64,000 bases of DNA, taken from Secundilactobacillus kimchicus JCM 15530. GTDB lineage: Bacteria > Bacillota > Bacilli > Lactobacillales > Lactobacillaceae. The stretch's first letter is position 1, and each line of letters begins with the position of its first letter. The position numbers and the translations under genes are program-made. The notes below the pieces were generated by a model that did no database searches, had not been told where the DNA came from, and saw nothing but the letters and a program-made list of their open reading frames with translations. The stretch is from assembly GCF_001433995.1 (NCBI RefSeq), contig NZ_AZCX01000010.1:1-64000 (forward strand), written 5' to 3'. Shown in pieces: positions 1,573 to 38,630 of the stretch.

Positions 1573-3249
1573 GTGAAACGACAAAAGCGATTTGAAGAAT
1601 TAGAGAAGCGGCCTATTCATGAAGATGGGTTCGTCAAAGAGTGGCCAGATGAAGGTTTAATTGCAATGATGGGGCCTAACGACCCAAAGCCAAGTATCAA
1701 GATTGAGAATGGTGTTGTTACTGAACTGGATAGCAAGAAACGCGACGACTTCGACCTGATTGACATGTATATTGCAACCTACGGAATCGATTTAAAAAAT
1801 GCTGAAAAAGTTATGGCAATGGATTCTATTAAGATTGCAAATATGTTAGTGGATCCCAATGTTTCTCGTAAGGAAGTTATCAACGTTACATTAGCTTTAA
1901 CACCAGCTAAGGCTGAAGAAGTTATTAGCAAATTGAATTTCGGTGAGATGATCATGGCTAGCCAAAAAATGCGACCTCGTCGGACGCCGGCTACTCAAGC
2001 GCATGTGACGAACATTCGTGATAATCCTGTGCTGATTGCAGCCGATGCAGCCGATGCAGCCGAACGTGGTTTTCCGGAGCAAGAAACAACGACGGCGGTT
2101 GCCCGGTACGCACCACTTAATGCCATTGCACTGTTAGTTGGCTCGCAAACCGGACGTCCAGGTGTCTTGACCCAATGTTCTGTTGAAGAAGCGTTGGAAC
2201 TTAACATGGGGATGAAAGGATTCACTGGTTATGCTGAAACGATTTCCGTTTACGGAACCGACCAAGTATTTACAGATGGTGATGACACCCCATGGTCTAA
2301 AGGATTTTTAGCTTCATGTTATGCCTCTCGTGGGTTGAAGATGCGATTTACCTCAGGTTCTGGCTCAGAAGCTATGATGGGTAACACTGAAGGAAAATCA
2401 ATGCTCTACCTTGAAGCAAGATGTATCTTCATTACCAAAGCATCAGGTGTCCAAGGCCTCCAAAACGGTGGTGTGAGTTGTATTGGGATCCCAGGCGCCG
2501 TGCCTTCTGGAATTCGCTCAGTTATGGGTGAAAACCTCTTATGCATGATGATGGATATCGAATGTGCCTCAGGTAATGACCAAGCCTTCTCTCACTCGGA
2601 TATGCGGCGGACTGAACGGCTATTGGGTCAGTTTATTGCCGGGACTGACTACGTTTCATCTGGTTACTCATCAACACCAAACTACGATAATACGTTTGCG
2701 GGTTCAAATACTGATGCCATGGATTACGACGACTACTACATCATGGAACGTGACTTGATGATTAATGGTGGGATCCACCCGGTAGATGAAGCAACAATCA
2801 TCAAAGTTCGGAATAAAGCGGCTAAGGCAGTTCAGGCAGTCTTTGAAGAACTTGGCTTGCCAAAAATTACCGATGAAGAAGTTGAAGCGGCAACTTATGC
2901 CAACACTTCAAAGGACATGCCAGACCGGAACATGGTCGAAGATATGAAAGCTGCTGAAGATCTCTTGAATCGGGGCGTGACAGCAGTTGATATTGTTAAA
3001 GCACTGTATGAATCAGGGTTTAAGGATATTGCGACCGAAGTTTTGAACCTTCAAAAGCAAAAAGTGTGTGGTGACTTCCTTCAAACGTCAGCCATCTTTG
3101 ATAAGGATTGGAATGTCATTTCTGCTGTTAATAACCCTAATGATTATCAAGGCCCTGGTACTGGATACCGGTTGGATGAAGACCCAGAGGAATGGGAACG
3201 GATTAAAGACGTCCCATTTGCACTGGATCCAGGTCACATGAAATTTTAA
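1573..3249 (+). CDS. pduC: B12-dependent propanediol/glycerol dehydratase, large subunit
   Basis: A 558-residue large (alpha) subunit of adenosylcobalamin-dependent diol dehydratase, close to the roughly 555 residues of the family. It carries the substrate-binding TIM barrel and converts 1,2-propanediol to propionaldehyde, or glycerol to 3-hydroxypropionaldehyde (reuterin), inside the microcompartment. Typical stretches are visible ([14 protein letters not shown] near the start, [10 protein letters not shown] in the middle, [15 protein letters not shown]). The start is GTG at 1573 behind GGAGG. PduD and PduE follow directly. Confidence 0.97.
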
Positions 3250-17225: not shown

Positions 17226-18323
17226 TCAAATATTTTGTAAATCGGTATAAAGCCACTGAATTTCTGAAATCGTCTGAACCGGGATTTCATTGACGGACTT
17301 TGTGGGCTGTTGGCCATCGATTGTAAATAACCAGCCACGGTTTTCAGCGGAGTCGGTCAGGTTGTCAATGCTGTTCACGTACAAGAACGTGTTAGCCGTT
17401 TGGTAGAAAAAGTCGATGCCTTGTTTATTAAAAAAGCGTTTCGACACGTCAAACACGGTATCGTCAGTTGCCCAATCAATGGTATGAGGAATCGTGAAAA
17501 TCTTTGCGGTTGGTGTGTTTTGACGCCGGAACTTAGAGGGAGTAGTTCCCGTCATTTTTTTAAAGGTTTTGGTGAAGTAGCTTGTTTGGGTAAAGCCTAC
17601 GTCAGCTGAAATGACGTTAATTGGCCGGGTTGTCAGTGCCAACTTTTCCTTAGCTCTGGCAATTTTGATGTGATTGACGTAGTCAACAAAAGTGACGTTA
17701 AGGTACTTTTTGAACAATCGACTCAAGTATGAAGGCGATAAGTACACTTTATTGGCAACTTCATTTAGCGAGAGTGGCTTCACGATATTTTGTAAAACAT
17801 ATTCGCTAGCCTTCTTTAAACTGGTGTAGGACTCCGTTCGATCGTAAATAATTTGCGGTTCGTGAGCGTCATTTTCGTTTCCTTTATCCTGAACGCGGGG
17901 GGACATTTTTAGCAGGATACTGAGATAGTTGATCTGGCTAAATTCGTCTTTACTTAAGGGATCCAAAACCTTTGAGTCAGTACAGTTATGGACTTCGCTA
18001 AAAACCTGTTGGAAAACGTTTGATAGGTAGTCTTTTGACAACTTAATTCGTTGCTGAGACACTTTTTCTGAATTACACAGGATAAATCCCCAAAAATTAG
18101 CATTATATGTGACGGGGAAAATGGTGTAATTAATCATTTGCTCTAAGTCTAATTGTTGTTGAATGAGTTTTTCATCGGTAAAAACATGATTTTTATGCAC
18201 AAGAATCCCAGATAACCCGTAAAACATGGCATCAATTTGGGTAATATCAGAAAATGACTGTAAATAATCACCGAGGCTCGTGTATTCGGGTAATGTTGGC
18301 ATATCTAGTGAAACTTTAGGCAT
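17226..18323 (-). CDS. pocR: PocR-like AraC-family activator with a C-terminal DUF4430-like domain
   Basis: A 365-residue regulator. Residues 10-110 match the PocR ligand-sensing domain (proposed sensor for propanediol/glycerol), and residues 168-268 form the AraC DNA-binding domain (SLNEVANKVYLSPSYLSRLF and PINVISADVGFTQTSYF). The last 80 residues (about 284-360) are not a usual part of AraC proteins. They follow the DUF4430 pattern of the neighbouring exported proteins: DxTVFDVxK, then YVxxI, then GWLFTIDGxxP, then IQWLYTD. This suggests a corrinoid-sensing module, which is an inference. A cre site lies upstream. It probably activates pdu and the corrinoid genes. Confidence 0.88.
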   Translation of the reverse strand: MPKVSLDMPTLPEYTSLGDYLQSFSDITQIDAMFYGLSGILVHKNHVFTDEKLIQQQLDLEQMINYTIFPVTYNANFWGFILCNSEKVSQQRIKLSKDYLSNVFQQVFSEVHNCTDSKVLDPLSKDEFSQINYLSILLKMSPRVQDKGNENDAHEPQIIYDRTESYTSLKKASEYVLQNIVKPLSLNEVANKVYLSPSYLSRLFKKYLNVTFVDYVNHIKIARAKEKLALTTRPINVISADVGFTQTSYFTKTFKKMTGTTPSKFRRQNTPTAKIFTIPHTIDWATDDTVFDVSKRFFNKQGIDFFYQTANTFLYVNSIDNLTDSAENRGWLFTIDGQQPTKSVNEIPVQTISEIQWLYTDLQNI

Positions 18324-20414: not shown

Positions 20415-21122
20415 ATGTCCAAGCGAAAAATAACCTTACTCGTTGTTAGTCTATTCGTGATATTTGGATTGGGATTTGCTGGCTACTCGGTCATGAGCAA
20501 GAGCGATAGTCAGGAAGTTTCGAATTCTTATAACGGTGATCAGAGTTCCAAGGCGAGTAGTAGTTCGGCTACATCCACAAGCTCTGTAACTCCAGAGAAA
20601 AAGGTTGCGGCTAAAGTTAAGGATACAAAAACAAGTAGTGATCCGTCGCATAAGCAAACCACAAAAAGCAAAGTTGTTGCAATTACCTCAACGAAAAAGG
20701 GCACGAAGGCGACCGCTCAAAAAAAGAACCATTCTGCACAAAAAACAAATAAGATCAATGGACAAACTTGCTCATTAACTGTCCGAGGTCCGATGACTCA
20801 AGGCAATAAGGTCATGATGCAGGCCACCAATGTCCGTTTTAAAACCGGCGACGTTGTCAGTACGGTCTTGAAAAATGTTGCGAAAGAGAAACATGTTGCA
20901 GTTGCCTACCAAGGAGGTGGCGGAACGACCTATATTCGCGGAATTAGTGGGTTGTTTGAATTTGACCGTGGTTCTGGCAGTGGCTGGCTTTATTCGGTTA
21001 ATAACAAATTCCCAGGGTTTTCATCGGGTAAGTATAAAGTGAAGAACGGTGACCATATCCAATGGCTATACACCGAAAACTTAGGTAAGGACCGGGATGC
21101 GCCACAGGTCAGTCAACGGTAA
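20415..21122 (+). CDS. Membrane-anchored DUF4430 (transcobalamin beta-domain-like) protein
   Basis: A 235-residue protein with an N-terminal membrane helix (residues 5-27, no lipobox Cys), a Ser/Thr/Lys-rich linker (30-115) and one DUF4430 domain (118-226). The domain shows GPMTQGNKV, FKTGDVVSTVL, TYIRGI, GSGWLYSVN and IQWLYTE. DUF4430 is the family of the C-terminal beta domain of intrinsic factor and transcobalamin. It is followed 16 bases later by an alpha-barrel partner gene and then the B12 ECF transporter, so it probably captures corrinoid at the cell surface. Binding itself is inferred. Confidence 0.8.
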   Translation: MSKRKITLLVVSLFVIFGLGFAGYSVMSKSDSQEVSNSYNGDQSSKASSSSATSTSSVTPEKKVAAKVKDTKTSSDPSHKQTTKSKVVAITSTKKGTKATAQKKNHSAQKTNKINGQTCSLTVRGPMTQGNKVMMQATNVRFKTGDVVSTVLKNVAKEKHVAVAYQGGGGTTYIRGISGLFEFDRGSGSGWLYSVNNKFPGFSSGKYKVKNGDHIQWLYTENLGKDRDAPQVSQR

Positions 21123-21138
21123 AGGGAGGAACTAAAAA

Positions 21139-22098
21139 GTGAAAAAAAGAAATTTGATTAAATCAACCTTGCTGGTACTAGGAACAATTTTATTGTCTAG
21201 CGCACTATTTACAGGTCGGACCAAAGCAACAACGCCTTATTACACGCAATCAATTAATAAAGGGGCCAGCTTCATTAAAAGCCATACTGCGAAGCAAAGT
21301 TTGGATAGTTGGGATGCACTGGCCGTTCGCCGTTCGCCGTATGGGATGAGCTCAGCCGCCAGAAAGGTGTTTGTTAAGAATTTGGCGGGGCAATTCAGTA
21401 ATTTACAGGGCCACTACGCCGCAGTGGATTATGAACGCAGTTTGATTGGTGCAGTATCAGTCGGGTACAATCCCACCAAGTATCAGGGGAAGAATTTGGT
21501 AACCGGCATTATTAAAACAGCACCAAAGTCAAACTCCGGGATCACGGCCAAGATTTTTGGCATTATTGCACTAAGCACAAAGAATTACGGTACAACGAGC
21601 AATGCCACTATCAAGACGTTATTAAGTCAAGTTGTAAAGGCTCAAAACACTCAGGGTGGATGGGCTTTGACCGGAACTGGGAGCGACGTTGATATTACGG
21701 GGATGGCCCTGATGGCGTTAGGGATGCACAGAAGCTATTCAAGCGTGAAAACGGCCATTACAAAGGCGGTTAATCTACTAAAGAATACGGCTTTCCAAAA
21801 AACGACGGGAGATTTTGTGATTAGTAGTGCATTTACCAAAAAGGCAAATGCCAATTCCGATGCCATGGCAATTGCTGGATTATCGGCGGTTGGTATCGAT
21901 ACTGAAAAGACGCTCAAGACAAAGAGTGGGGTCACCCCTATTCGACGACTCATCAAATATCAAAAATCAAACGGGCAGTTTAGATGGCTTGTCGGTAGTA
22001 ATAGCGGATCACTTCAAATGGCCACTCAGCAAGCGACCTACGCGATGGAACAATATCGTAATTTGAAGTTGAAAAAAGGCTCAATTTTTAATTTTTAA
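21139..22098 (+). CDS. Secreted alpha/alpha-barrel protein, transcobalamin alpha-domain-like
   Basis: A 319-residue exported protein with a signal peptide (1-30, ending near TKA). The mature part consists of helical repeats of the terpene-cyclase/prenyltransferase type: LDSWDALAVRRSP near residue 54, QGGWALTGTGSDVDITGMALMALG near 172-195, and a C-terminal GSIFNF. The N-terminal domain of human intrinsic factor has the same fold and D-x-D/T-A-M-A style repeats. Starts with GTG behind GGGAGG. It has no catalytic Asp-rich motif that would support a real cyclase. It probably forms a clamp with a DUF4430 protein. Confidence 0.75.
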   Translation: MKKRNLIKSTLLVLGTILLSSALFTGRTKATTPYYTQSINKGASFIKSHTAKQSLDSWDALAVRRSPYGMSSAARKVFVKNLAGQFSNLQGHYAAVDYERSLIGAVSVGYNPTKYQGKNLVTGIIKTAPKSNSGITAKIFGIIALSTKNYGTTSNATIKTLLSQVVKAQNTQGGWALTGTGSDVDITGMALMALGMHRSYSSVKTAITKAVNLLKNTAFQKTTGDFVISSAFTKKANANSDAMAIAGLSAVGIDTEKTLKTKSGVTPIRRLIKYQKSNGQFRWLVGSNSGSLQMATQQATYAMEQYRNLKLKKGSIFNF

Positions 22099-22138: not shown

Positions 22139-22191
22139 GGAAAACATCAAACAGAAACTTAGTCTGGATAGGTAACGTGGAGGTGTTTTTA

Positions 22192-23124
22192 ATGGACCAG
22201 CAGATGGCGAAACAGCGATCACGGGCAACTGGTGCGGTGCGTTCACGACTCGTTTTTGAACAACTAAACCCGTGGGTGACTTTCAGTTACTACGTGGTCA
22301 CTATTGCGTGTTCAATGGTTTTTTTACACCCCATTTTTTTGCTGGTTGAACTTCTGATTGTGGTTGGCGTGAACTACGTTGCTCGCGTTAGAAAGCAAAT
22401 GGTCATGGTGTTGGAAGGCAGCATTTTCATGGTGGCGTTTATTATGGTTTTAAATCCACTCATTAATAACCGCGGGGCCCATGTCATTTGGACGTTTGGC
22501 GGAACGTTAATTACGGTTGAGGCTATCTTTTACGGCTTTATGATGGCGTTATCGCTAGTGATCGTCTTGCTGACTTTCTTGTCATATAACAAGGTGTTAA
22601 CGAGTCAGAAGTTTATGTATCTCTTTTCAAGAATATCGCCCAAGTTAACCTTGTTGACGATGATTACGTTGCGATTTGTCCCACTTTTCATCAGGCGATT
22701 AAAAAACATTTCACAAGCTCAAACCGTCCGGGGTATCAATGTCAATCGTGGTAGTTCGCGCCAACGGAGTATTGGCGTTGTGAAAATGATGGAGGTTTTA
22801 TTAGTTCGATCATTTACGGATGCGCTACAGACAGCTGATTCGATGAATGCTCGTGGATATGGTAGTGGTCAGCGTTCGAGTTATCAGCGTTACCGGTTCA
22901 AACAACGCGATCTTTTATGTCTTGGCTGGTTTATTCCGCTTAGCGGTCTGTGCTTCTATGCTGCCAGTCAAGGAATTGGCCGAATGGTTGTGTATCCCGC
23001 ATTGGGATCACTCGGCTTATCGCTTACGGGTTGGCTCGTTTTGTTGGGGGTCGCTGTACTGTTTAGTTTTCCATTAATCTTAGAGGCTTGGGAGTGGCTG
23101 TGGTGGAACTTATTAAAGTCGTAA
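22192..23124 (+). CDS. ECF transporter transmembrane component (EcfT)
   Basis: A 310-residue membrane protein with about five to six hydrophobic segments and the two Ala/x-Arg-Gly coupling motifs of EcfT (QTVRG near residue 183 and NARGYG near residue 220) that contact the ATPases. The ATG at 22192 lies eight bases after GGAGG; an in-frame GTG at 22177 overlaps that site. It appears dedicated to the CbrT-like S component in the same operon (group I ECF arrangement). Confidence 0.85.
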   Translation: MDQQMAKQRSRATGAVRSRLVFEQLNPWVTFSYYVVTIACSMVFLHPIFLLVELLIVVGVNYVARVRKQMVMVLEGSIFMVAFIMVLNPLINNRGAHVIWTFGGTLITVEAIFYGFMMALSLVIVLLTFLSYNKVLTSQKFMYLFSRISPKLTLLTMITLRFVPLFIRRLKNISQAQTVRGINVNRGSSRQRSIGVVKMMEVLLVRSFTDALQTADSMNARGYGSGQRSSYQRYRFKQRDLLCLGWFIPLSGLCFYAASQGIGRMVVYPALGSLGLSLTGWLVLLGVAVLFSFPLILEAWEWLWWNLLKS

Positions 23125-24758
23125 ACTTCAACTTTGAGTATGCATTAGCAAAGAAAAGAAGTCTGATTAACATCAACCTGGCAATAAATTCGGGTGATTT
23201 TATTACCATTGCTGGTGATTCGGGAAGTGGGAAAACGACCCTGTTACGGCAATTTAAGCCAGAGCTGTGGCCCGTGGGTAAACGTGAAGGCCAAATTCTG
23301 TTTGAAGGGCAATCGATTTCTGAATTGGCAAAACGGCAAAGTGCCCAAAGCATTGGAATGGTTTTTCAAAATCCCGATGATCAATTAGTGATGGATAATG
23401 TCATTCAAGAACTGGCCTTTTCACTAGAAAACATTGACGTGCCCGCTGACGTGATTCAGCAACGGATTGCTGAATTAGTGAGTTTTTTGGGACTGCAAGA
23501 AATTTTGTATGAGGATGTCCACAACTTATCTGGTGGTCAGAAACAGATGGTCAACTTAGCCGCCGTATTAATTCTTCGTCCGAAACTGCTTATTTTAGAT
23601 GAACCAACGGCGCAACTAGATCCGATCGCAACGAAAGAGTTCATTTCTTTATTGAATCGAGTTCATGATGAATTAGGGATTGCTATTGTGATGAGCGAAC
23701 ATATCTTAGATGATGTGTTGCCGCTGTCTAACAAACTTTGGATTCTTAAGCAGGGGGAGTTGATGGCTGATGGGCCAACCACTGCCGTTTTAAAGCAGCT
23801 TTGGACGGAACCCCACTTAAGGAACTTTATTCCAGACGTTCCCTTTTTATTTTTAAATCAGCAAATAGCAGCGCAGTTACCTGTGTCAGACCTACCGTTA
23901 ACGGTGCTTACTGGTCGTGAACTGATGCAACGAGGACACGTCGAGGTGCAAGCAGAAGCAAAGTCACGGATTAGCCATGATGAAAATGGCGTTGTGGCGA
24001 AACTAAGTCACCTGTCGTTTGAGTACGATAAAAATGGTCACTATATTTTAGACGATCTCAATTTGAGTGTTCATCAAAAAGACTGGTTGGCGATTATTGG
24101 TAAAAACGGGACCGGTAAAACGACGCTGTTAAAGGCAATTATGGGATTTATTACCCTTCGACGTGGTAGCGTCAAGTTACTTGATAAGAAACTCGCGACT
24201 TGGACTAAAAAAACGGATCAATTTTATCGTGAAGTGTCCTATTTATCGCAAACACCGAGCGACTATTTCAGCTACGATACCGTTCAGGAGGAATATGAGG
24301 AACGTGCTAAACAGCTAAACATGGCGACGCCTGTAGAAGCAGCTCAAAATATGATGCGAGACATGACGATCGATCAAATTGCTAATCGTAACCCGCACGA
24401 TGCGAGTGGGGGTGAGCAACAACTCATTGCATTGGGTCTCTTGTTGATGTCGAATCCCAAGTTGTTATTACTTGATGAGCCAACGAAGGGATTAGATCCG
24501 ATTCGGCGCCAAAAATTGGGTGATATTTTACAGAAGCGGCAGACTGAGCAGAATCTAACCATCATCATGGTCAGTCATGACATGAACTTCAGTGCCCAGT
24601 TTGCCAACCGCTGTGCCTTGCTTTTTGACGGTAAGTTGGTTGCGCAAGCCGAACCACACCAGTTCTTTGCTGACAATTTCTTCTATACCACAACGGTGAA
24701 CCGACTTCTTCGTTATCAGTTGCCCAACGTTATTGAACGGGGGGAGGTTATTCCATGA
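23103..24758 (+). CDS. ECF transporter ATPase, two domains fused (EcfA-EcfA)
   Basis: A 551-residue protein with two complete ABC ATPase domains. Domain 1 (1 to about 230) has GDSGSGKTT, LSGGQKQM and LILDEPT. Domain 2 (about 295 to 540) has GKNGTGKTT, SGGEQQL and LLLDEPT. Housekeeping ECF modules use two separate ATPases; here they are one chain. GTG 23103 is preferred because it is eight bases from GGAG; the gene overlaps ecfT by 22 bases and the next gene by 4 bases. Confidence 0.9.
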   Translation: MELIKVVNFNFEYALAKKRSLININLAINSGDFITIAGDSGSGKTTLLRQFKPELWPVGKREGQILFEGQSISELAKRQSAQSIGMVFQNPDDQLVMDNVIQELAFSLENIDVPADVIQQRIAELVSFLGLQEILYEDVHNLSGGQKQMVNLAAVLILRPKLLILDEPTAQLDPIATKEFISLLNRVHDELGIAIVMSEHILDDVLPLSNKLWILKQGELMADGPTTAVLKQLWTEPHLRNFIPDVPFLFLNQQIAAQLPVSDLPLTVLTGRELMQRGHVEVQAEAKSRISHDENGVVAKLSHLSFEYDKNGHYILDDLNLSVHQKDWLAIIGKNGTGKTTLLKAIMGFITLRRGSVKLLDKKLATWTKKTDQFYREVSYLSQTPSDYFSYDTVQEEYEERAKQLNMATPVEAAQNMMRDMTIDQIANRNPHDASGGEQQLIALGLLLMSNPKLLLLDEPTKGLDPIRRQKLGDILQKRQTEQNLTIIMVSHDMNFSAQFANRCALLFDGKLVAQAEPHQFFADNFFYTTTVNRLLRYQLPNVIERGEVIP

Positions 24759-25489
24759 AATCCTTGTCGCAAACTTTTAAACCAAGTATGGGTTACGCCA
24801 TCTCAATTGGTGTGTTTGTTCTTTGTCTAGTTTGGATTACTTTTTTTAATGGGGACCAACACTATTTGATTTTGAGTTTTATTTGTCTAGCTGCCAGCAT
24901 GTTACCGTTCTATTGGCATTTTGAAACCCGGGAATCGGAAGCTAGAGAAATTGTGTTTTTGGCTGTCTTAGCGACGGTGGCAGCACTTGGCCGGGTTGCG
25001 ATGGCGGCTGTTCCCGACGTGAAACCGACCAGCTTTGTCATTGTGATGACCGGATTGACGCTTGGACCGGAAGCGGGGTTTATCGTGGGCTCAACTTCGG
25101 CGGTCGTATCGAACCTGTTTTTAGGACAGGGGCCTTGGACTCCTTGGCAAATGTTTGCGTGGGGTGCAATGGGCATTTCCGCCGGGCTAATCCGTAATTT
25201 TAAGATCGCACATAACCGTTATTTTTTAGCTATATTGGGACTTGTTTACGGGTTCTTGTTCGGTTGGATTATGGATTTATGGTACGTGATGGTCTACGTG
25301 CAGCCACTCAACATAAAGACTTTTATCGCTGCCTACCTTGCTAGTTTTTACTTTGATCTTGCTCATGGTGTTACCACTGCCATTTTACTTTATTTATTCT
25401 ATCAATCGTGGTACCGCATTATTACGCGATTTAAGTACAAATATGGACTGGCAGGCGTTCAAGATGAGATCAATCAACAAAGTTTTTGA
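24755..25489 (+). CDS. cbrT: CbrT-like ECF substrate-binding component for cobalamin
   Basis: A 244-residue hydrophobic protein with about six to seven membrane segments. It resembles the B12-specific S component CbrT of Lactobacillus ECF-CbrT (family features: GRVAMAAVPDVKPTSFVI and LGPEAGFIVGSTSAVVSNLF). It is coupled by ATGA overlap to the fused ATPase gene. The context of pdu and cobalamin salvage genes supports cobalamin/cobinamide as substrate. Confidence 0.8.
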   Translation: MKSLSQTFKPSMGYAISIGVFVLCLVWITFFNGDQHYLILSFICLAASMLPFYWHFETRESEAREIVFLAVLATVAALGRVAMAAVPDVKPTSFVIVMTGLTLGPEAGFIVGSTSAVVSNLFLGQGPWTPWQMFAWGAMGISAGLIRNFKIAHNRYFLAILGLVYGFLFGWIMDLWYVMVYVQPLNIKTFIAAYLASFYFDLAHGVTTAILLYLFYQSWYRIITRFKYKYGLAGVQDEINQQSF

Positions 25490-26116: not shown

Positions 26117-26854
26117 GTGGGACAATACCGGGATTTAACGTTGCTTCAAATAGCACCGGATAAGACACTGGTTGTTGCATGTGATTCAAGTGCTGGCATT
26201 GGCGAAAAACCACTGGACAATGTTCGAACGGCAACTGAAACCGTCGCTGCTTTTTCGCTTCGGGTACCACTCCTAGAATTATTGTGTTACGGGGCAACGC
26301 CTCTGATGGTGGTTGATACGTTGGGAAACGAAATGCAACCGACAGGGGCCGCAGTGATTCGAGGACTCAAACAAGAGTTGGCGCGGGCGGGCTACGCTGA
26401 TCTGCCAATCAACGGCAGTACGGAAGACAACATGGAGACGCAAACGACTTCCGTTGGGGTGACGGTCGTTGCCGAAAGTGTGAGTCATAGAATATCGGAT
26501 CGAATCGATCAGGCGGAAGTTTATCAAATCGGAGTCCCATACGTTGGCGAAGACCTGCTGGCACACCTCGACGAAGTGGTTTCGTACGAAACTGTTCGGC
26601 AGATTAAACAGTGTCCGGGTGTTGTTGATTTAATACCAGTTGGCTCGCGAGGAATCGCCCATGAAGTTGCCGAATTAGCCCATACCAATAGACTTGAATA
26701 CGATTCTAAACAGTTGGATAGGCCAGTTTATCGTCGGTCAGCCGGACCATCAACGGTCATTTTAGCGCTGGTTTCAACCAGTGCCGCTTCCCACTTCGAG
26801 ATATTGTTTCCGACAGCGACTCCCGTCATTCATCTGAAGGCGGTTAACCGTTAA
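26117..26854 (+). CDS. cblS: CblS-like alpha-ribazole kinase
   Basis: A 245-residue AIR-synthase/ThiL-related protein. The N-terminal RDLTLLQIAPDKTLVVACDSSAGIG and the GSTEDNMET stretch are typical of CblS, which phosphorylates alpha-ribazole to alpha-ribazole-5'-phosphate for CobS. Starts with GTG 26117 behind AAAGGGG. It lets the cell bypass CobT and use a scavenged nucleoside. It lies between cblT and cobS. Confidence 0.8.
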   Translation: MGQYRDLTLLQIAPDKTLVVACDSSAGIGEKPLDNVRTATETVAAFSLRVPLLELLCYGATPLMVVDTLGNEMQPTGAAVIRGLKQELARAGYADLPINGSTEDNMETQTTSVGVTVVAESVSHRISDRIDQAEVYQIGVPYVGEDLLAHLDEVVSYETVRQIKQCPGVVDLIPVGSRGIAHEVAELAHTNRLEYDSKQLDRPVYRRSAGPSTVILALVSTSAASHFEILFPTATPVIHLKAVNR

Positions 26855-26883: not shown

Positions 26884-27651
26884 ATGACACTGTTTAAGAG
26901 TATGGTTGCGTACTTTCGATTTTTCACCCGAATTTATATTCCGGGCGACTTAGGCAATGAACTTTATTACCTTAACCATGGGAGTAAATTCTTACCAGTA
27001 TTTGGGTTACTGATTGGCCTAATTGAGGCCTCAATTTATTATTTATGTGCACTGGTCGTTCACGCCCCGTTAGCGTTTATGGTGGTGTTATTGGCCGACG
27101 TTTGTTTAACGGGTGCCATGCATCAGGACGGGTTTGCGGATCTCTCAGACGGGATCTTTTCTTCCAGAAAACAAGACCGAATGCTTGAGATTATGAAGGA
27201 TAGCCGTCTCGGAACGATGGGGGCCTTAGCGCTCATTTTTTACTATCTATTTATGGTTGGGATTTTTACCAACTATGTCGATCAGTTTCAGCTATGGGAC
27301 GGTTATATTGCGATTCTATTGATGCACATGGTTGGAAAAAGTGACATTGTGCTGTTGTTTTATAAAATGAAGTATCGTAACGCGACTCACGGTGGTCTTG
27401 GCCAAATTTGGTCGAATGTTGCCACCAGCAACATCGTGATTGCACAGGTCATTGCCATTGCTTTTCTAGTCGGATTTTACCAGGTTGCTGGGGTGATCAT
27501 TTATCTCATTCAGGTGTTGTTTTTACTGGTCTATCGCCGATTTATTTTGAAAAAATTAGGTGGCTTTAGCGGGGATTCTTTGGGTGGTGTTGTGCCAATG
27601 ACGAACGTAATTTTCTTGTTCTCGGTGGGTGCTTTGGGGACGTGGCTATGA
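26884..27651 (+). CDS. cobS: Adenosylcobalamin-5'-phosphate synthase
   Basis: A 255-residue membrane enzyme that joins adenosyl-GDP-cobinamide to alpha-ribazole (phosphate). The conserved segment LTGAMHQDGFADLSDG corresponds to the metal-binding GGLHxDGLAD region of CobS, and GGFSGDSLGG matches the C-terminal G-D-x-LGA-like motif. Several hydrophobic helices follow. It overlaps cobC by 4 bases. Confidence 0.92.
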   Translation: MTLFKSMVAYFRFFTRIYIPGDLGNELYYLNHGSKFLPVFGLLIGLIEASIYYLCALVVHAPLAFMVVLLADVCLTGAMHQDGFADLSDGIFSSRKQDRMLEIMKDSRLGTMGALALIFYYLFMVGIFTNYVDQFQLWDGYIAILLMHMVGKSDIVLLFYKMKYRNATHGGLGQIWSNVATSNIVIAQVIAIAFLVGFYQVAGVIIYLIQVLFLLVYRRFILKKLGGFSGDSLGGVVPMTNVIFLFSVGALGTWL

Positions 27652-28257: not shown

Positions 28258-28992
28258 ATGAAGTATTATCGGTTTATGAGGGCGTTTGTTTTAGGAATCT
28301 TAGTTGTGATGGGGGTGCTGATAGCGGGGAGTTTCTCGACCACAGCTCCTCAACCTGTCCAGGCCCAATCAGCTAAGGTTGTTCGGGTTAAGACGATGAA
28401 CATCAGTAAAAAAGCAACTCACGTTTCTCGGGGTGTGATGTATTCATCAAATCGATTAACCAAAATGGTCCATAATGGTGCCAACTATAGGGGCACGACG
28501 TTTTACACTTACCGGCAAGCCCAGGTGACTCGAAGTAACAAGAAGACGACCGCATATGTCTATATCAGATCAGCCAATGGTCGGGTCGCTGGCTGGATTT
28601 GGAAAGGGTACCTAAAAGCTGGTAAAGCAACGGTCACCAATGTGTCTAACAAGAAGGTGACCGTTCAGGTGAATGGTCCTTTGAGTGAGGGAAATAAGAT
28701 CATTGCATCAGGTCCCGTTTCTTTTAAAACAGGTGCGACTGCATTTAGTGTTCTGCAGTCGTTGACTAAAAGAAAAGGGATTAAGATCGCTTATACCGGT
28801 CGAGGGAGTTCGACATACGTCACGATGATTGCTGGCAAAAAAACTGGTAGTGGCGGTGTTGGTGGTGGCTGGGTATATCAGGTGAACGGGCACTACTCAA
28901 ACCGCAGTGCTGGTGCTTATAAGCTTAAGAATGGCGATAAGGTTCAGTGGGCCTGGAGTGAAAAGGCTGGCGACCGTGGCTGGCAAGGATAG
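28258..28992 (+). CDS. Secreted DUF4430 protein with a surface-attachment domain
   Basis: A 244-residue exported protein: signal peptide (1-36, AQA cleavage), an SLAP/GW-like beta domain (about 48-120, VMYSSNRLTK and TTFYTYRQAQVTR, GWIWKGYLK) and a DUF4430 domain (134-240: GPLSEGNKI, FKTGATAFSVL, TYVTMI, GGGWVYQVN, VQWAWSE). The N-terminal domain resembles cell-wall-binding modules of lactobacilli. It is the last rightward gene of the corrinoid operon, closely similar to the leftward gene at 29137-30018. Confidence 0.8.
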   Translation: MKYYRFMRAFVLGILVVMGVLIAGSFSTTAPQPVQAQSAKVVRVKTMNISKKATHVSRGVMYSSNRLTKMVHNGANYRGTTFYTYRQAQVTRSNKKTTAYVYIRSANGRVAGWIWKGYLKAGKATVTNVSNKKVTVQVNGPLSEGNKIIASGPVSFKTGATAFSVLQSLTKRKGIKIAYTGRGSSTYVTMIAGKKTGSGGVGGGWVYQVNGHYSNRSAGAYKLKNGDKVQWAWSEKAGDRGWQG

Positions 28993-29057
28993 CCAGACTA
29001 CCTTGAGCGGGAATCGATGCGGGCCGCGAACTATTGTGTAACCGCATATCAAAAGCC

Positions 29058-29109
29058 AAAAAAGAAGTTCTTTCAGATCAGATACTGGTCTGAGAGAGCT
29101 TCTTTTTTT
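29058..29109. terminator. Bidirectional terminator between convergent DUF4430 genes
   Basis: A long hairpin, AAAAAAGAAG plus TTCTTTCAGA paired to TCTGAGAGAG plus CTTCTTTTTTT, with A and T runs on opposite sides so that it can end both converging transcripts. Confidence 0.75.
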
Positions 29110-29136
29110 ATAGGGTGAGTAGATTTGATGAGTTGA

Positions 29137-30018
29137 TTATGAGCTCTGGCTGCTGCCGGTCCAGCCACGATCGCCAAGCGTAGAAGTCCAAACCCATTGG
29201 ACAAGATCGCCGCTCTTAACTTTGTAAGATCCAGCGCTTGCGTTTGGATAAGAGCCGTTGACGTTGTACAACCAACCGCCGCCGACACCACCGGAACCAG
29301 CAGTATAGCTACCAATCCGAGTGACATAAGTTGATGATCCAGAACCGGTGTAGGAAATGTCGCTGTCGAGTTGTTTCAAAACATCAAACGCCGTATCGCC
29401 GTCCTTGATGGCGACATTCCCAGATTTAAGCACCTTGTTGCCCTCTTCGAGAGGTCCGAAAATTTGAACTTGAACCTGTTCGGTATTGACGTTGGTGTTA
29501 GTTGACGTACCAGTATTGCCAACGAGTGGCGTAATTGGTGCTTGAGAGCCAGTTGTGGTTGTTGTTGGTGCTGTTGGCGTAGTTACCGTGGTCGTCGTAG
29601 TTGTGGTGGTTGTTTGACTTGCAGGTGTCTTTTTGACAGCCGGAGCACTACCTTTCTTTAAATATCCGTGCCAAATCCACCCCTTTACTTTGTGGTTGCT
29701 GGTTGTCATGTAGTAGTAAACGGATCGTTTACCGTTTGCGCGAGTAATCGTGGCCTGACTATAGGTGTAAAAAGTTGTGTGGGGATAATTAACGGCGTAG
29801 TGGTTTGCCCGCGTTAATTTGCTAGTGCTATAGAAGACGCCACTTGTGACGTGGTAGGCTTTTTTTGTAAGGCGCTTGTAAGTCGCTTTGACCACCTTGG
29901 TGCTCTTTGTTTTAGCCTGAGCGGATGGGGCGGTTGAACTGGTGCCGGTTCCAAGCGCTAATCCACCAAGTAAAAGCGCGGTAACGGTTAATAACTTTGT
30001 TAAACGAAGTCGTTTCAT
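29137..30018 (-). CDS. Secreted DUF4430 protein with surface-attachment domain and Thr-rich linker
   Basis: A 293-residue exported protein: signal peptide (1 to about 38), a cell-wall-binding-like domain (about 45-125, FYSTSKLTR, GWIWHGYLKKG), a Thr-rich linker (about 130-170) and a DUF4430 domain (182-290: GPLEEGNKV, KDGDTAFDVLKQL, TYVTRI, GGGWLYNVNG, VQWVWTS). It is a paralogue of the rightward gene at 28258-28992 with a longer linker, so the pair likely arose by inverted duplication. A corrinoid-capture role is inferred. Confidence 0.8.
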   Translation of the reverse strand: MKRLRLTKLLTVTALLLGGLALGTGTSSTAPSAQAKTKSTKVVKATYKRLTKKAYHVTSGVFYSTSKLTRANHYAVNYPHTTFYTYSQATITRANGKRSVYYYMTTSNHKVKGWIWHGYLKKGSAPAVKKTPASQTTTTTTTTTVTTPTAPTTTTTGSQAPITPLVGNTGTSTNTNVNTEQVQVQIFGPLEEGNKVLKSGNVAIKDGDTAFDVLKQLDSDISYTGSGSSTYVTRIGSYTAGSGGVGGGWLYNVNGSYPNASAGSYKVKSGDLVQWVWTSTLGDRGWTGSSQSS

Positions 30019-30106
30019 TTTGCATATCTCCTTACTGTATGAGCCATTGTATTTTTATGTTGCACATTGTGACCAAATAGAGGAATGGTGGTACGGGATT
30101 AATTCG

Positions 30107-32251
30107 CTAGTAGGCGGTGCTGATGACCAGTTTTTTGTTGGCGGTGACGTAGCTCCCATTCATCAACTGGAACCGCGTCATGGTGCCGCTTTTGATAAGT
30201 TTATGAACCTTCAAGCTTTGTCCTTTCTGATAGTGATGTTGCTTGCCAGAAAGCGTCGACTTTTTGTACAGGTTAAGGCCACCGTTAGAGATGACTCTAA
30301 TCTGCTTAGGGGTTGTTTGGTAATAGGTGTAAGCCACCGATTTGGCGTTGGTTGTGATGTACCCCTTTTTGCCGCTAACTTGGTTTTGCACGTAGTAGGC
30401 TTTCTTTCCAGCGTCATTTTTAACCGTTCTCAGCACTTTGAAAACGGGTCGGTTAGTACGTCGATGTTTGACATAGGATGCAATGACCTTGCCTTTCAAC
30501 TGATTACTCTGATAGAGTTTCAAACTTGAGATGGCATAAACTAGTTTTTGGTTAGTTGGTTTGATGATGGTTGTTTTTGTAGTTATCAGCTGTGTTACAG
30601 GGCTGGTGGTTGTTACCGACTGAGTTGCTTGAAAGTTGGTGATTGCTGTGACACCCGCACTCTGAACCTGGCTTAAGGCCGTGGTCGTCGTTGCTTGTTT
30701 AAGTTGATTGGTGTAAGTGGTTACCAATCCATCAATTGCGGTGTACGCTGCTTCTTTGTCAGTGGCTAATAGAGCTGGGTCATTTTGAATGACGGTCTTT
30801 TTAGCATTTCCAGCCGTAATGATGGCGTTGGTGGCAGTGTTAAGTTGACTGGCGGTGACCGTTTTAGTGGTTAGGTCGTGGATTGGAGTGATGGCTTTGA
30901 GACTTGAAACGGAAGCCGTTTGGATGGTTTTTAGAACTTGTAACGTGATGTTTTTGGCTTGGGCGTTTTGGCTATAGTGCGAGGTAATATTCTTAACGGT
31001 CGTGATTGCGGTGGTCTTAGCTGAATCCGAGGCGCCTGTGTCAGCATTGATGCTGGCAATTTGAGCTGCGGCGGCATCATCAATCATTTTGACGGTGGCC
31101 GTTACATCATCATTAGTCGGGTAAAGGTAACTAGCCGATTTAATCTTATTTTTACCGGTGTTTAGAATAGTGTTCACGTCGCTTAAGCTAGTGGCAGCAT
31201 TGATTTGACTCGTATACTGATTCAATAACGTTTTGGCATTTGCTAACGCGGTTTTTACAGCATCATCGAAGCCGGAAACAGCATCGAGCGTTTGCTTGGT
31301 CGTATCGTAGGCAGCTTTTAGGGCGGCAATGGCGTTAGTCTTGCTAGAGTCACTAGCAGCATTACCATCCGTTGTAGGAACAATGTTGCTAAATTGTTTG
31401 TAAAAATTTGGCAACATCTGTTGGAGATCACTTAGTGTGACACTCGGCGCATTTAGCTGATTTTTGTCGTCAGAATACGCGGTTTTAAGGGCATTAACGG
31501 CCTCGTTCTTCTGGTCTTCAGTAGGGGTGACAAGAGCGTTTATGGCATCTTCTCTAGACTCAGCCATGCTATCAAGAATGAAGTTAGCAAATTTTAAATC
31601 TTGAGTACTTGGTGTGGATGTTGAATTAGTTCCTTGGAGGCTCTTACTAAGTAAAGGAATACCGATGATTGTGTTACATATTGAGGTTATCGAGCTTTTT
31701 TTGGACTTAGTTTTCGCAAGGGTCTCGATAGGTTTCAACTTTCCGGTTCCCATGGCATCCTTGTTGGTTTTCGCCGCTGCATTATCGGGATCAGTCTCAG
31801 TTATTTCGTTAATTTCATTGGTTCGTTCGGCAAATATTTTTGTCTGCAGATTAATTGCTGATTGCCAATCATTTGGAGTGGCTACGTCGTTAATAAATAG
31901 AATTAAAGTATCAACAACACTTTGGAAGGTGGATTGAGTGCCCCCTTGTTTATAGGTGTTAACAGCAGAATCAAGTTGTTTTTGTAGTTTTGCAAGATTG
32001 TTGATAGCAATCTGTTTTACTGGTTCTGAGGCATCAGAGTTGTTGATCTCAGTAGTTATATTAGAAGCCAAGTCGTTCACTCTTGCTGTGGCTGCGTCAA
32101 TATCCGCCTGCTGAGTATCCGAGGTAGAGTCGGCAGATACCTCAGTATCCTTGAAAAAGGAAACCAGTGTTGAAATTTTTGAAGTTGGAAGCAATAATCC
32201 GAGCAAGGTTGACAGTAATAATAAATTTGACGCTAAAACAGTTTTTTTCAT
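30107..32251 (-). CDS. Large secreted helical-repeat surface protein
   Basis: A 714-residue exported protein. It has a signal sequence (1 to about 41), then about 520 residues of degenerate helical repeats with Ala/Lys/Asp-rich segments such as DSSKTNAIAALKAAYDTTKQ (resembling DUF1542/FIVAR-type stalks), and two C-terminal beta modules (about 570-714; YAISSLKLYQSNQLKGK and GGLNLYKKSTLSGK) resembling lactobacillar DUF5776/SLAP wall-binding domains. Its function is not recognisable. It may be a surface scaffold or adhesin; location amid transcobalamin-like genes is suggestive only. Confidence 0.7.
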   Translation of the reverse strand: MKKTVLASNLLLLSTLLGLLLPTSKISTLVSFFKDTEVSADSTSDTQQADIDAATARVNDLASNITTEINNSDASEPVKQIAINNLAKLQKQLDSAVNTYKQGGTQSTFQSVVDTLILFINDVATPNDWQSAINLQTKIFAERTNEINEITETDPDNAAAKTNKDAMGTGKLKPIETLAKTKSKKSSITSICNTIIGIPLLSKSLQGTNSTSTPSTQDLKFANFILDSMAESREDAINALVTPTEDQKNEAVNALKTAYSDDKNQLNAPSVTLSDLQQMLPNFYKQFSNIVPTTDGNAASDSSKTNAIAALKAAYDTTKQTLDAVSGFDDAVKTALANAKTLLNQYTSQINAATSLSDVNTILNTGKNKIKSASYLYPTNDDVTATVKMIDDAAAAQIASINADTGASDSAKTTAITTVKNITSHYSQNAQAKNITLQVLKTIQTASVSSLKAITPIHDLTTKTVTASQLNTATNAIITAGNAKKTVIQNDPALLATDKEAAYTAIDGLVTTYTNQLKQATTTTALSQVQSAGVTAITNFQATQSVTTTSPVTQLITTKTTIIKPTNQKLVYAISSLKLYQSNQLKGKVIASYVKHRRTNRPVFKVLRTVKNDAGKKAYYVQNQVSGKKGYITTNAKSVAYTYYQTTPKQIRVISNGGLNLYKKSTLSGKQHHYQKGQSLKVHKLIKSGTMTRFQLMNGSYVTANKKLVISTAY

Positions 32252-32286
32252 AAGTTAGATGTGCCTTTCTTAGATTTCTAAAAACA

Positions 32287-32300
32287 CTAAAACGCTTACA
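32287..32300 (-). promoter_or_regulatory. Possible cre site upstream of the large surface protein gene
   Basis: On the minus strand TGTAAGCGTTTTAG contains the conserved TGTAAGCGTT half but deviates at its last bases. It is 36 bases upstream of the start at 32251. Confidence 0.35.
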
Positions 32301-32453
32301 TATATTCTAAAAAAACAACATTATGAATACAATTATTTCAGAAAGTCTTGCAAAATTGTATTACGAATTGCCCGGAATGCGATAAGAGCTACGATTAATT
32401 AGCTTAAATAAACGGTTATAGTAAAATCGTATCATTAGAGTCTTGTTTTCACG

Positions 32454-32490
32454 AAAAAACAGGGTAGCCCTTTCCGGGGCGCCCTGTTTT
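32454..32490 (-). terminator. Terminator after the alpha-barrel gene at 32510
   Basis: A hairpin with arms AAAACAGGG and CCCTGTTTT and a GC-rich inner part, followed by T on the minus strand. Confidence 0.7.
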
Positions 32491-32509
32491 ATAAAGTTTG
32501 ATATCTGGC

Positions 32510-33627
32510 TTAGTTAACTGGATTTGCGGTAAAGTCAAAGATTGATCCTTTACCATCGACGCTATAGCTATATTGATCTAGCGCATAAACGGCTTGTTGT
32601 GTTGAAAGTTGTCTATCGTATGTCATTTCTGGTGTCCAATTAAAGCTACCAGCGTCAGTTCCATGTAGAACTTGGAAAGATAAAAGAGCACTTAGTGGTG
32701 ACTCGTCTGGGAGTTCAGTGCCACAAGCTGCCAACCCGGCAATCAGCATTGCATCACTTGAACTATTGACGGCTGCATCAGCAACAAACGGATCTTTGAA
32801 GTTACCGTCTTCTTGTAAAGCACCGTTACCGCCAATGAGAGTAATGGTATTGAATGCTGAGTTAACAGCATTAGTAATGCGTCCATCGGTGTCAAATTCT
32901 GAATTTCCAAGATAAAGCGCTAAGGCTTGTAAAGCCATCCCAGTGGTATCCAAGGTGTACCCGTATTGATCCGTCCAATACCCCGTCTCGGAATTTTGCA
33001 TACCCAGCAAGTTGGTCACCATAATCTGGAGATCGGCAGTTTGAACATTGCCAAGATTACTTGATTGTGCCGCAGTAGCAGCGATTAAGCCATAAGTGAC
33101 CGCATAGACATCGGCGTCTGCGGCAATACCGTTTGTGACGGCTTCTTGAACCAGGTTTTGGCCGTTCACGTTTGTTGGATCAGCGCCGACGCAAATTAAG
33201 CCAATGACATCACGGGCGTAATCGGTAGGTTGGTGTTGGGTACTTGGATCTGCGTAATTTGTTTCAATGTTGGTTTGAATTTGAGTTTTTTGAGCATCGG
33301 TAATGCCGGTTGAACTACGAACGAGAGCTAGCGCATCCCATCCCGTCAATTTTTCGGCGGCGACTTGGGTGTTGATCCAGTTGACCTCTTGGGTAATTGC
33401 GGTTGCGTAATCATCAGCTTGGACGACCTGGTTAATGGATTTAACTGAGGTGGTGAAGGTTGCGTGCGCCTTTGGCGTGCTAGTTTTCACGTTTTGAACA
33501 ACCGCTGTGGGCGTTTCCGTTGCTTGGGCCTGCGTATTGCCTACGACAGTGAAACCAAAGGTACTAGAGAAAAGCAAGAAGCTGAACGTCATTTTAAGCG
33601 TCGATTGTTTGGCTGTTGTTTTTTCAT
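32510..33627 (-). pseudogene. Alpha-barrel protein (transcobalamin alpha-like), frameshifted in the signal peptide
   Basis: The open frame from ATG 33592 (360 residues) has no ribosome site and starts in the hydrophobic core of a signal peptide (TFSFLLFSSTFGF...AQA). The perfect start, AAAGGAG seven to eight bases before ATG 33627, encodes a basic n-region (MKKQQPNNRRLK) and then meets TGA in the other frame at an AAAATGA junction. One added A would fuse the two into a normal signal peptide. The mature part is intact (LTGWDALALVRSS, GYTLDTTGMALQALAL, GSIFDF) and parallels the protein at 21139-22098. It may be a sequencing error, a phase-variable A tract, or coupled reinitiation. Confidence 0.65.
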
Positions 33628-34105
33628 GGTTTATGGCTCCTTTGATTTGTGATTGGTAGTAGCAGTTAGTAAGTTGTTGAAAAGCGTTGCCAGTGTCGCT
33701 TTCAGATTAGTGTTACGCTATATTGAAGCAGACTGACCTCCATTTCGACCATCACCCATTCTCTAATAGATTATCGCTTAAAAATTTAAACCAGCGATTG
33801 ATACGAAAAAGTTGGGGCACAGAGGTGGCCGTTTTCGATAACACGACTTATATACCGAATGATTGAAAAGGTCATCTATATGTAAGCGCTTTTCCTATCT
33901 GTAGTTTTAACTATAAATTAAAATTATGTTTAATTTGTGGCCGATTTATGATTTTTTATAGATATTTGATTACCGTATAAAACGGTTGCTTCACTTTAAT
34001 GGCATTCTGTAATGAAAATGATTTAAATGGCTGAATCACCAGTGGTTATAAGCATAGAGGTTGTGGCTAGCCACGTTCTCATAAGCAGTCCTAATTTTCA
34101 TTTAT
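33628..34105. other. AT-rich intergenic region with cre-like site
   Basis: About 480 bases with no coding frame. It must hold the promoter for the leftward alpha-barrel gene. A cre-like TGTAAGCGCTTTTC lies at 33881-33894 with deviations at the last two bases. Nothing else was recognised. Confidence 0.45.
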
Positions 34106-34156
34106 AAAAACACCCAATCTTGCGGGATGCTACGCACTGCAAGATTGGGTGTTTTT
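34106..34156 (-). terminator. Strong terminator after the alpha-barrel gene at 34182
   Basis: A 16-bp hairpin (AAACACCCAATCTTGC and its complement) flanked by A and T runs on opposite sides; it can work in both directions. Confidence 0.8.
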
Positions 34157-34181
34157 AGGAGGATATTGTATAAAGGGGTGG

Positions 34182-35231
34182 CTAGTTAATCGTATACACC
34201 GACCGGTGATGCAGGGCGGTTTTATAAGCAGCAATGGCTAGGTTAACTTGGCCAATGCCGTATAACTGGCTAGACGCGCCTTTGATAGAGCCGGTTGAGT
34301 TAACGTATTTGAATAATGCAGTTAATGGGGAGACGTTTTGGGTCTTGATTGATCGTGAATGGTTGACGTATTTTACGGTGTTCAATTTTGTTGCGTAGGC
34401 TAATACGGCTTCCGCTGTGGAATTGGCATTGAGGACCGTTTTACCGAGATACTGATACCCAAAGGCGCCAGTAGTCGCAACCTTTGATTTGAGGTAGTTC
34501 TGGCCCTGAATTAGGCTGGCCTTAACTTGCTGAGTCGTTGACTTTGACCGTGCTAGGGCAATGATAGCCATGGCCGTTGTATCCGTATCAACGTTTGATA
34601 GTTGGTTGTCATAGGCCCATCCATGATTAGTTTGTTGGAGGGCTGAAAGCGTCATAGCTAATTTTGTTCGACTAAATTTTGCGTTTTTCGGTTGTTTATA
34701 ATTTCCCGTAGATACGGCGATTAATACCTGGCTTAAGGCACTAGTCGTCTGGTTGTTGATATTTGATTGATACAGCTGGGCGACTAAGTTTAGCGTTTTT
34801 TGACTCCCATACGGACGGAATTTTTGGGGATTATAGCCAATTGCTTTTAGCCCCACAATGGCCTTCGATAAAGTGGCAGCGTCACTTTTTGAATTAAGCA
34901 CAAGGTTCTTTCGGATAAAGGCTTTCTGACGACCGGTGAACTTGTAACCGTTTCCTTTTAATCCCAAAAGAAAATCAGAATAGCCGTCAGCGGCGCCACT
35001 AGTTGGGTAGGCTGAACGACTAAAAATCGGTGCAGCATCAGTCGTAAAGCCGTTTTTGTTAGTGGCAAGCATTTCTTTCGCGTAACGAACAGTTGCGCTA
35101 GTTTTCGACTTAACCACTTTACTTGTCGACGTCTTAAACGTCGTAGCGGCGTGAGCCGAATCGCGCTGTAGACCGCCAACAACGAACAATGTTGAGGTAA
35201 GGATGGTTGCGAGTAAGATGTGTTTTTTCAA
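34182..35231 (-). CDS. Secreted alpha-barrel protein, transcobalamin alpha-domain-like
   Basis: A 349-residue exported protein starting at TTG 35231, seven bases after AGGAGG. A signal peptide ends near SAHA (residues 25-29). The mature part has helical repeats including GWAYDNQLSNVDTDTTAMAIIALA (about 200-224), which is the D-x-D-T-A-M-A pattern of prenyltransferase/intrinsic-factor barrels. It is the most divergent of the three such proteins and lacks the GSIF(N/D)F tail. No enzymatic motif was seen. Confidence 0.72.
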   Translation of the reverse strand: MKKHILLATILTSTLFVVGGLQRDSAHAATTFKTSTSKVVKSKTSATVRYAKEMLATNKNGFTTDAAPIFSRSAYPTSGAADGYSDFLLGLKGNGYKFTGRQKAFIRKNLVLNSKSDAATLSKAIVGLKAIGYNPQKFRPYGSQKTLNLVAQLYQSNINNQTTSALSQVLIAVSTGNYKQPKNAKFSRTKLAMTLSALQQTNHGWAYDNQLSNVDTDTTAMAIIALARSKSTTQQVKASLIQGQNYLKSKVATTGAFGYQYLGKTVLNANSTAEAVLAYATKLNTVKYVNHSRSIKTQNVSPLTALFKYVNSTGSIKGASSQLYGIGQVNLAIAAYKTALHHRSVYTIN

Positions 35232-38275: not shown

Positions 38276-38350
38276 TTTTCGGCTAGTTGAAATTTTTTTC
38301 AAAATCAGATTGACAGATTAAAAAACAGTGAGCATTATAACTGTAATTAA

Positions 38351-38608
38351 ATGAAGTGATGAAGAGAAGAGTAGGCCAATCATTATGGTGCAGAGAGCGC
38401 GAGCTACGGTGAAATCGCGACGTTAAGGGTTGGTTGAAGATGATCTTGGAGCTTTTAACCGGTGCAAGCTAGTTAAGCGGTAGAAACCCGTTATTGTTTT
38501 GGACTTTCCAGTTGGAGAGTTTCTGAGGTGGTCAGCGTGAGTTGGCTGCAAATTCGGGTGGTACCACGTGTCAACGTCCTGTTACAGCAATGTAGCAGGG
38601 CGTTTTTT
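38351..38608 (+). promoter_or_regulatory. T-box riboswitch, apparent Met specifier, before an OppA-like gene
   Basis: Stem I elements (GATGAAGAGAAGAGTA, then an upper helix GGCCAATC paired to GGTTGGTT) are followed by GAAG-ATG-A before the lower helix. By comparison with the known glycyl T-box layout the specifier is ATG (Met). The T-box GGGTGGTACCACG is at 38556-38568, and the terminator at 38574-38608 ends in six T. TTGACA at 38310 is a likely -35. It would allow expression when tRNA-Met is uncharged. Confidence 0.85.
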
Positions 38609-38630
38609 GATGAAGAAGGGACGGTTGAGC

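Follow-up and report, generated by a model that had tools for sequence, protein, structure and literature searches.

The regulator gene at the end of the pdu cluster of Secundilactobacillus kimchicus JCM 15530 raises the question of why a PocR-like transcription factor should carry a domain resembling the beta domain of transcobalamin, and whether such a tail could report on vitamin B12 in the cell.

The regulator and its C-terminal domain

The window analyzed here is a stretch of 64,000 nucleotides. The regulator is encoded by an open reading frame of 365 aa on its minus strand (17226-18323), between an EutP/PduV-like gene, whose product scored just beneath its cut-off, and a glycerol kinase gene. 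The pdu cluster that ends there contains the large subunit of a B12-dependent propanediol/glycerol (diol) dehydratase (1573-3249, plus strand; NCBIfam NF011979, E 2.3e-295), the reactivase PduG, a PduO adenosyltransferase and an aldehyde dehydrogenase. The AraC-type HTH domain was matched by Pfam HTH_18 at residues 190-268 (17520-17756, minus strand; E 2.2e-23). Against the NCBIfam equivalog TransRegPocR the protein reached 96.1 bits, short of the cut-off of 500, so we regard it as PocR-like in its working but outside that equivalog. The nearest named relative is S. yichangensis (77% identity).

An initial sequence-only reading had noticed that the tail of the regulator is patterned like exported DUF4430 proteins, and the motifs on which it relied, DDTVFDVSKRFF, YVNSI, GWLFTIDGQQP and IQWLYTD, were all found in the regulator. 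The profile comparison that it proposed gave a match of the whole protein to DUF4430 (Pfam PF14478) at residues 287-360 (17244-17465, minus strand) with an E-value of 1.2e-12. The score was 48.5 bits (cut-off 23.8), and the tail by itself scored 52.0 bits. The domain had been placed at 17229-17486, which does correspond to residues 280-365, but the first strand of the domain in the predicted model starts earlier, at residue 274. A six-frame search of the whole genome found four DUF4430 matches, every one inside the window: 17244-17465 on the minus strand (the regulator), 20847-21074 and 28732-28959 on the plus strand, and 29185-29400 on the minus strand.

The full regulator was modeled with a pLDDT of 83 (below 50 at residues 1-5 and 140-161), and its Foldseek matches were led by AraC-type proteins, with transcobalamin chains at ranks 46-48 and 50 (E 0.08-0.1). 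When the tail was modeled alone (pLDDT 91, pTM 0.83), a beta-grasp domain was predicted, with strands at 5-10, 36-41, 44-50, 60-66 and 85-92 and a helix at 21-32 in tail numbering; in the full model the helix spans residues 290-300 and is followed by strands at 305-310 and 313-319. The first 18 PDB matches of the tail model were chains of transcobalamin, intrinsic factor and haptocorrin together with 3u7z (probability 0.96-1.00, E 0.016-0.25, TM-score by query length 0.51-0.67). No PDB match was found at E 0.001, which counts against a corrinoid reading of the tail; the structural signal of the model is uniform in kind and modest to weak by E-value. At the sequence level, the tail found no believable relative among PDB chains (two matches, best E 0.12, both to unrelated proteins), and a combined profile of tails and exported domains did not reach transcobalamin among PDB sequences. 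With a profile built from the exported domains, haptocorrin (E 0.09) and transcobalamin-2 (E 1.5) came up amid false matches of similar score. What connects the tail to transcobalamin is the Pfam match, the fold prediction and the exported forms as intermediates. These findings support the assignment of the tail as a DUF4430 domain with a beta fold. The regulator appears to consist of a shrunken PocR sensor, an AraC DNA-binding domain and a transcobalamin-beta-type domain, in that order.

Further genes of interest follow the glycerol kinase gene in the window. An exported DUF4430 protein (20415-21122, plus strand; domain at 20847-21074, E 3.2e-16; export judged by eye from the N-terminus) is followed by an apparently exported protein (21139-22098, plus strand), which has no Pfam match of its own and was assigned indirectly as alpha-toroid-related: it shares 30% identity with residues 112-342 of L152, a 646-aa protein in which a Prenyltrans alpha-alpha toroid match (157-311) precedes DUF4430 (559-638), and 31% with part of L145, another DUF4430-bearing protein. 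Then come the T component of an ECF transporter (CbiQ family; 22177-23124, plus strand; PF02361, E 5.2e-15), its double ATPase (23088-24758, plus strand; TIGR04520, E 2.7e-102, in two stretches) and an S component that is probably for cobalamin, judging from its neighbors (24755-25489, plus strand; ECF-ribofla_trS, E 5.9e-11); the transporter has two S components. A gene at 26117-26854, with an AIR-synthase-type Pfam match just beneath cut-off, adjoins the S component and the CobS-like gene, and we take it to be perhaps an alpha-ribazole kinase of the CblS kind. The CobS-like adenosylcobinamide-GDP ribazoletransferase (26884-27651, plus strand) was below all cut-offs (NF001277, E 6.2e-39; TIGR00317, 109.9 of 110 bits). 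After it lie a histidine phosphatase gene and two further genes for apparently exported DUF4430 proteins (28258-28992, plus strand, E 7.9e-18; 29137-30018, minus strand, E 4.1e-14). The regions 20415-22098 and 28258-35231 resemble a split transcobalamin-like uptake kit around the ECF transporter, in which DUF4430 proteins and relatives of alpha-toroid stretches, three of each, are all apparently exported. Neither a CbiC match nor a cobalamin riboswitch match (RF00174) was found in the genome, which suggests corrinoid salvage without such a riboswitch. Elsewhere in the window, a T-box leader (38350-38584) lies just 5' of a gene (38568-40241) whose product looks, by eye, like a peptide-binding protein.

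Distribution, conservation and gene neighborhoods

When 397 genomes of Lactobacillaceae were surveyed, matches to the regulator at E 1e-20 or better were found in 64, and in 35 of these, with 48 copies, the match ran far beyond the HTH (the frame of the G387 copy is broken). Alignment A1 holds 46 copies, leaving out G387 and a copy whose reading frame was called short (G325:C28); the addition of 16 named loci gave 62 regulators (alignment A2). DUF4430 was matched in 57 of the 62 at E 0.001, and in 45 of the 46 at E 1. The five that miss it at E 0.001, one of them with a wrecked tail, count against the corrinoid reading. The wrecked tail belongs to a second PocR copy in Levilactobacillus brevis ATCC 14869 (L120:8001-8939, equivalent to L048:8304-9242), in which the HTH still matches; this copy adjoins an exported DUF4430 gene and an ECF transporter. 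Among 61 regulators, the tail (mean pairwise identity 46.8%) is almost as conserved as the DNA-binding HTH (52.9%), the N-terminal region being more variable (29.2%).

In an unrooted tree of 61 tails and 37 exported domains (alignment A6, 95 columns), the tails formed one group with 100/100 support; this alignment omits the wrecked tail, exported rows weaker than E 1e-13, rows that were incomplete or duplicated, and three sequences that are both short and divergent (L119, L194 and L196). The fusion therefore arose once in this sample and was kept. A recent copying of the tail from the adjoining exported gene was ruled out by the same tree, in which the tails stand apart from the exported domains. 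When one genome per species was scanned across 84,980 species, within the bounds of two peptide patterns, 80 of 84 relatives were kept and the HTH-plus-tail proteins among these were from Lactobacillaceae. The window regulator is the usual PocR-type activator of one Lactobacillaceae branch, whose tailed species include Limosilactobacillus reuteri (L113, 359 aa). Among 14 loci from other groups (L141-L154), the 10 checked by Pfam all had DUF4430 without an HTH, and the other four (L144, L146, L148 and L149) are proteins of 142-143 aa. In Sporolactobacillus (L143, L144, L146, L148, L149 and L150), a DUF4430 protein of about 140 aa follows an ECF-S-like gene, and the small gene precedes a PduO-like adenosyltransferase in 4 of the 6 loci. 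A Lentilactobacillus kosonis record (L074/L082) has pduQ, ackA and pocR each frame-split, by decay or sequencing error.

Diol dehydratase was found in 46 of the 397 genomes and in 34 of the 35 tailed ones. The exception, G155, has its regulator 10.4 kb from the B12 enzyme EutB and 7.5 kb from CbiC. By raw counts over the 48 copies, 33 had pduC within 25 kb, 3 had eutB, 14 had cbiC and 20 had an exported DUF4430 gene, the last taken from a partial list of 24 entries; 44 copies had at least one of these. The other four were near no tested gene, and two of them start less than 400 bases from a contig end. The theme common to the neighborhoods is B12, more than propanediol. A role of the tail as a marker of B12 auxotrophs was ruled out, for CbiC occurs in 21 of 35 tailed genomes and in 5 of 12 tail-less, dehydratase-positive ones. 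As a separate observation, 6 of the 11 cobalamin riboswitch matches in tailed genomes lie about 5 kb from an EutB match (G346:C4:178974-179107, G282:C2:87383-87524, G264:C214:361-527, G363:C64:221572-221703, G155:C2:656840-656960 and G084:C4:470263-470323). Regulation of eut genes by B12 is known in other genera.

The PocR sensor and cobalamin riboswitches

It had been proposed from the sequence that pdu expression is coupled to the cofactor as well as to propanediol. The part concerning propanediol is uncertain: a shortened PocR-sensor-like domain is kept at residues 10-137 (17913-18296, minus strand), but Pfam gave no match to the PocR sensor PF10114 in the window regulator even at E 10, and none in the 62 tailed-family regulators at E 0.001. 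With hhalign, the N-terminal parts showed a weak similarity to canonical PocR domains (78%, score 37.4), where 60 column shuffles reached at most 24.3 and the reversed profile scored 13.3. Canonical Cys79, Cys82 and Cys101 face gaps in this alignment; of five Cys invariant in six canonical PocR proteins only the last, Cys124, faces a Cys in the tailed family, at Cys83 of the window regulator (Cys in 43 of 62). The missing Pfam match and the weak profile similarity suggest that the old sensor is reduced where the tail is present. Sensor loss also occurs in some tail-less relatives. The full PF10114 domain was found in tail-less PocR of Loigolactobacillus (L130 and L186) and Vagococcus (L132) with E-values of 2e-38 to 5.3e-42, the Furfurilactobacillus type (L135 and L185) has a fragment under cut-off, and Pfam found none in L187, L191 and L192, from two other genera.

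In Listeria, antisense RNA to pocR is driven by a cobalamin riboswitch, which leads to repression of PocR at low B12, and a similar riboswitch was reported in Vagococcus carniphilus (PMC9943018). An antisense cobalamin riboswitch was found approximately 100-200 bases 3' of a tail-less pocR in four cases: Loigolactobacillus jiayinensis (L130, genome G170; L130:8421-8531, minus strand), Vagococcus humatus (L132:8461-8627, minus strand), Enterococcus (L136:8803-8972, minus strand) and a second Loigolactobacillus genome (G123:C1:850527-850683). The tail-less set comprises 16 cases, namely 12 dehydratase-positive genomes and the loci L132, L133, L134 and L136; in the stretches examined, three of the genomes (G360, G366 and G384) have no clear PocR gene and two of the loci (L133 and L134) have no pdu genes. 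Any cobalamin riboswitch match at E 0.001 was present in 10 of the 35 tailed genomes, the nearest on a contig shared with a tailed regulator being 7.1 kb off (G335). A further 17 tailed loci were searched, two of them from genomes already counted, and the other 15 (12 genomes) had no riboswitch at the gathering score. A riboswitch beside pocR was thus found in 4 of 16 tail-less cases and in 0 of 47 tailed genomes (p = 0.003 with descent ignored), a contrast whose true weight is smaller because the cases are related, some perhaps of the same species, and contig ends can conceal a riboswitch.

A strict exchange of riboswitch for tail was not borne out, since 12 of the 16 tail-less cases lack a riboswitch beside pocR. 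Because of the contrast between the two sets, we tentatively suggest a looser change from RNA to protein, in which an ancestral antisense-riboswitch control of pocR might have been replaced in one Lactobacillaceae branch by the fused transcobalamin-type domain while the PocR sensor decayed. If this were true, a transcription factor would read coenzyme B12 with the fold of blood transcobalamin.

Candidate ligands of the tail

The human beta domain by itself binds cobalamin, with virtually no structural change upon binding according to the authors (PMC5599065). In the haptocorrin beta domain the bulky residues 357, 359 and 362 contact the corrinoid, and transcobalamin-2 has Tyr362 (PMC4350170). 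In the full model, the strands at 305-310 and 313-319 form a beta-hairpin at residues 305-319 (17367-17411, minus strand), taken here as the insert described as typical of the transcobalamin-like clade (PMC1796856). The profile alignment shows R, W and Y of haptocorrin at the 357/359/362 spacing and places the Tyr, the counterpart of Tyr362 in haptocorrin and transcobalamin, on Tyr315 of the regulator (codon 17379-17381, minus strand). This register was obtained with the exported-only profile (91.7%) and the combined profile (88.6%). The regulator-only profile arrived at this register too, but not significantly (6.2%; score 19.8, best shuffle 21.3); 1 of 100 shuffles scored higher, so that this profile does not exceed chance against haptocorrin, and this counts against the corrinoid reading. 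At position 315, 52 of 62 regulators have Tyr and 8 have Cys, one more having Phe and one a gap; the eight Cys also count against that reading. Gly330-Trp331 is common to all 98 aligned domains, Gly330 being invariant. Gly312 occurs in 54 of 62 regulators, the window regulator having Thr there, and its place as the second family glycine is uncertain. Moreover, the regulator lacks an alpha domain, which in transcobalamin completes the binding site, and this is a further point against a corrinoid; another part of the regulator would have to stand in for that domain, or nothing would.

It is unlikely that the ligand of the tail is not a corrinoid but, for instance, alpha-ribazole, a metal, a diol or an aldehyde. 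Other ligands for HTH-fused forms were allowed by a reviewer and the authors of an earlier analysis (PMC1796856), 3u7z, which alone among the tail's top 18 matches is a bacterial structure, is titled 'putative metal binding protein', and Cys337 occurs in 32 of 62 regulators at a site where 81% of the 37 exported domains have Gly. The common factor of the neighboring genes (pdu, eut, cbi, ECF and CobS) is nevertheless B12. It is rather improbable that the tail is a structural part, a beta-grasp fold that contacts the dimer partner or RNA polymerase with no ligand at all: the hairpin Tyr of most rows and the Gly-Trp motif are retained in common with the exported forms, although Gln339 and Gln356 are each present in 61 of 62 regulators compared to 37% and 10% of the exported set. 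Rob and STM3175 (Foldseek ranks 28 and 2) likewise have a C-terminal partner domain after the HTH, as the window regulator does, but its fold, presumably GyrI-like, differs from that of the tail. A passenger without function would be in keeping with the L. brevis paralogue, whose HTH still matches ahead of a wrecked tail; this is very improbable because the tail is conserved, with the identity, single tree group and DUF4430 matches given above.

We consider it probable that the tail binds corrinoid in the cytoplasm and that the regulator is gated in this way. The ligand, coenzyme B12 or something closely related, would sit on the hairpin face, and we infer that the bound corrinoid would alter DNA binding or activation by the regulator. 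The regulator would then turn on B12-dependent use of diols or ethanolamine, together with B12 supply, only under suitable cofactor conditions. The sign of the effect is a guess by analogy with Listeria, namely activation. A coupling of pdu expression to corrinoid availability via this predicted sensor is plausible and fits the neighborhoods, the conservation and the fold.

The view that no regulator of such composition had been described did not stand. AraC and ArsR fusions of a transcobalamin-like SLBB domain, the AraC one from Lactobacillus, were published by Burroughs et al. (2007), who proposed one-component sensing of B12, its precursors or another ligand (PMC1796856). That fusion is like the window regulator in architecture, genus group and proposed role; the parts of the paper drawn on here give one example and no physiological role, whereas the present family is tied to pdu, eut and cob neighborhoods and was counted over 397 genomes. 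Disruption, complementation and overexpression experiments by Santos et al. (2011) showed that reuterin, pdu and B12 genes are under the control of PocR in L. reuteri, which activates pdu and cbi/cob (PMC3162504). This PocR (Lreu_1750, 359 aa) has a C-terminus about 60 residues longer than that of Salmonella, with the domain left unnamed in the part of that paper drawn on (PMC3162504). Its same-length relative L113 has the tail and shares 35% identity with the window regulator across residues 22-361. B12 is made by L. reuteri, while no CbiC match was found in the window genome. The main text of a 2014 study of the L. reuteri clade contains neither DUF4430 nor the word 'domain' (PMC4122935). 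In the open-access literature, as far as it was covered, no paper naming both DUF4430 and AraC and no published test of B12 sensing by the tail were found. The fusion architecture and the idea of B12 sensing are thus already known, and the proposed mechanism is likely.

Canonical PocR of Listeria, Vagococcus, Enterococcus and Loigolactobacillus is, as here, an AraC activator, and adjoins pduBCDEG in Vagococcus, Enterococcus, 3 of 5 Loigolactobacillus loci or genomes and, per the literature, Listeria. Unlike the window regulator, it has the PF10114 sensor in the three tested (L130, L132 and L186) and no DUF4430 tail, and some have the antisense riboswitch after the gene. The tail appears, from the model, alike in fold and hairpin to the beta domain of transcobalamin, intrinsic factor and haptocorrin and to the exported DUF4430 proteins of Gram-positives. 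The latter are exported and sometimes fused to or beside an alpha-toroid-type protein, whereas the regulator tails sit behind an HTH and form their own group.

What is new here, prior publication being possible, is the joining of the 2007 and 2011 lines, the distribution, the reduced sensor, the riboswitch contrast and the finding of copies near other B12 genes. The idea of B12 sensing is directly testable in the strain with a published pocR mutant and complementation. If the tail senses a corrinoid, the regulators that govern reuterin and B12 synthesis in lactobacilli of food and the gut would gauge their own cofactor via a transcobalamin fold.
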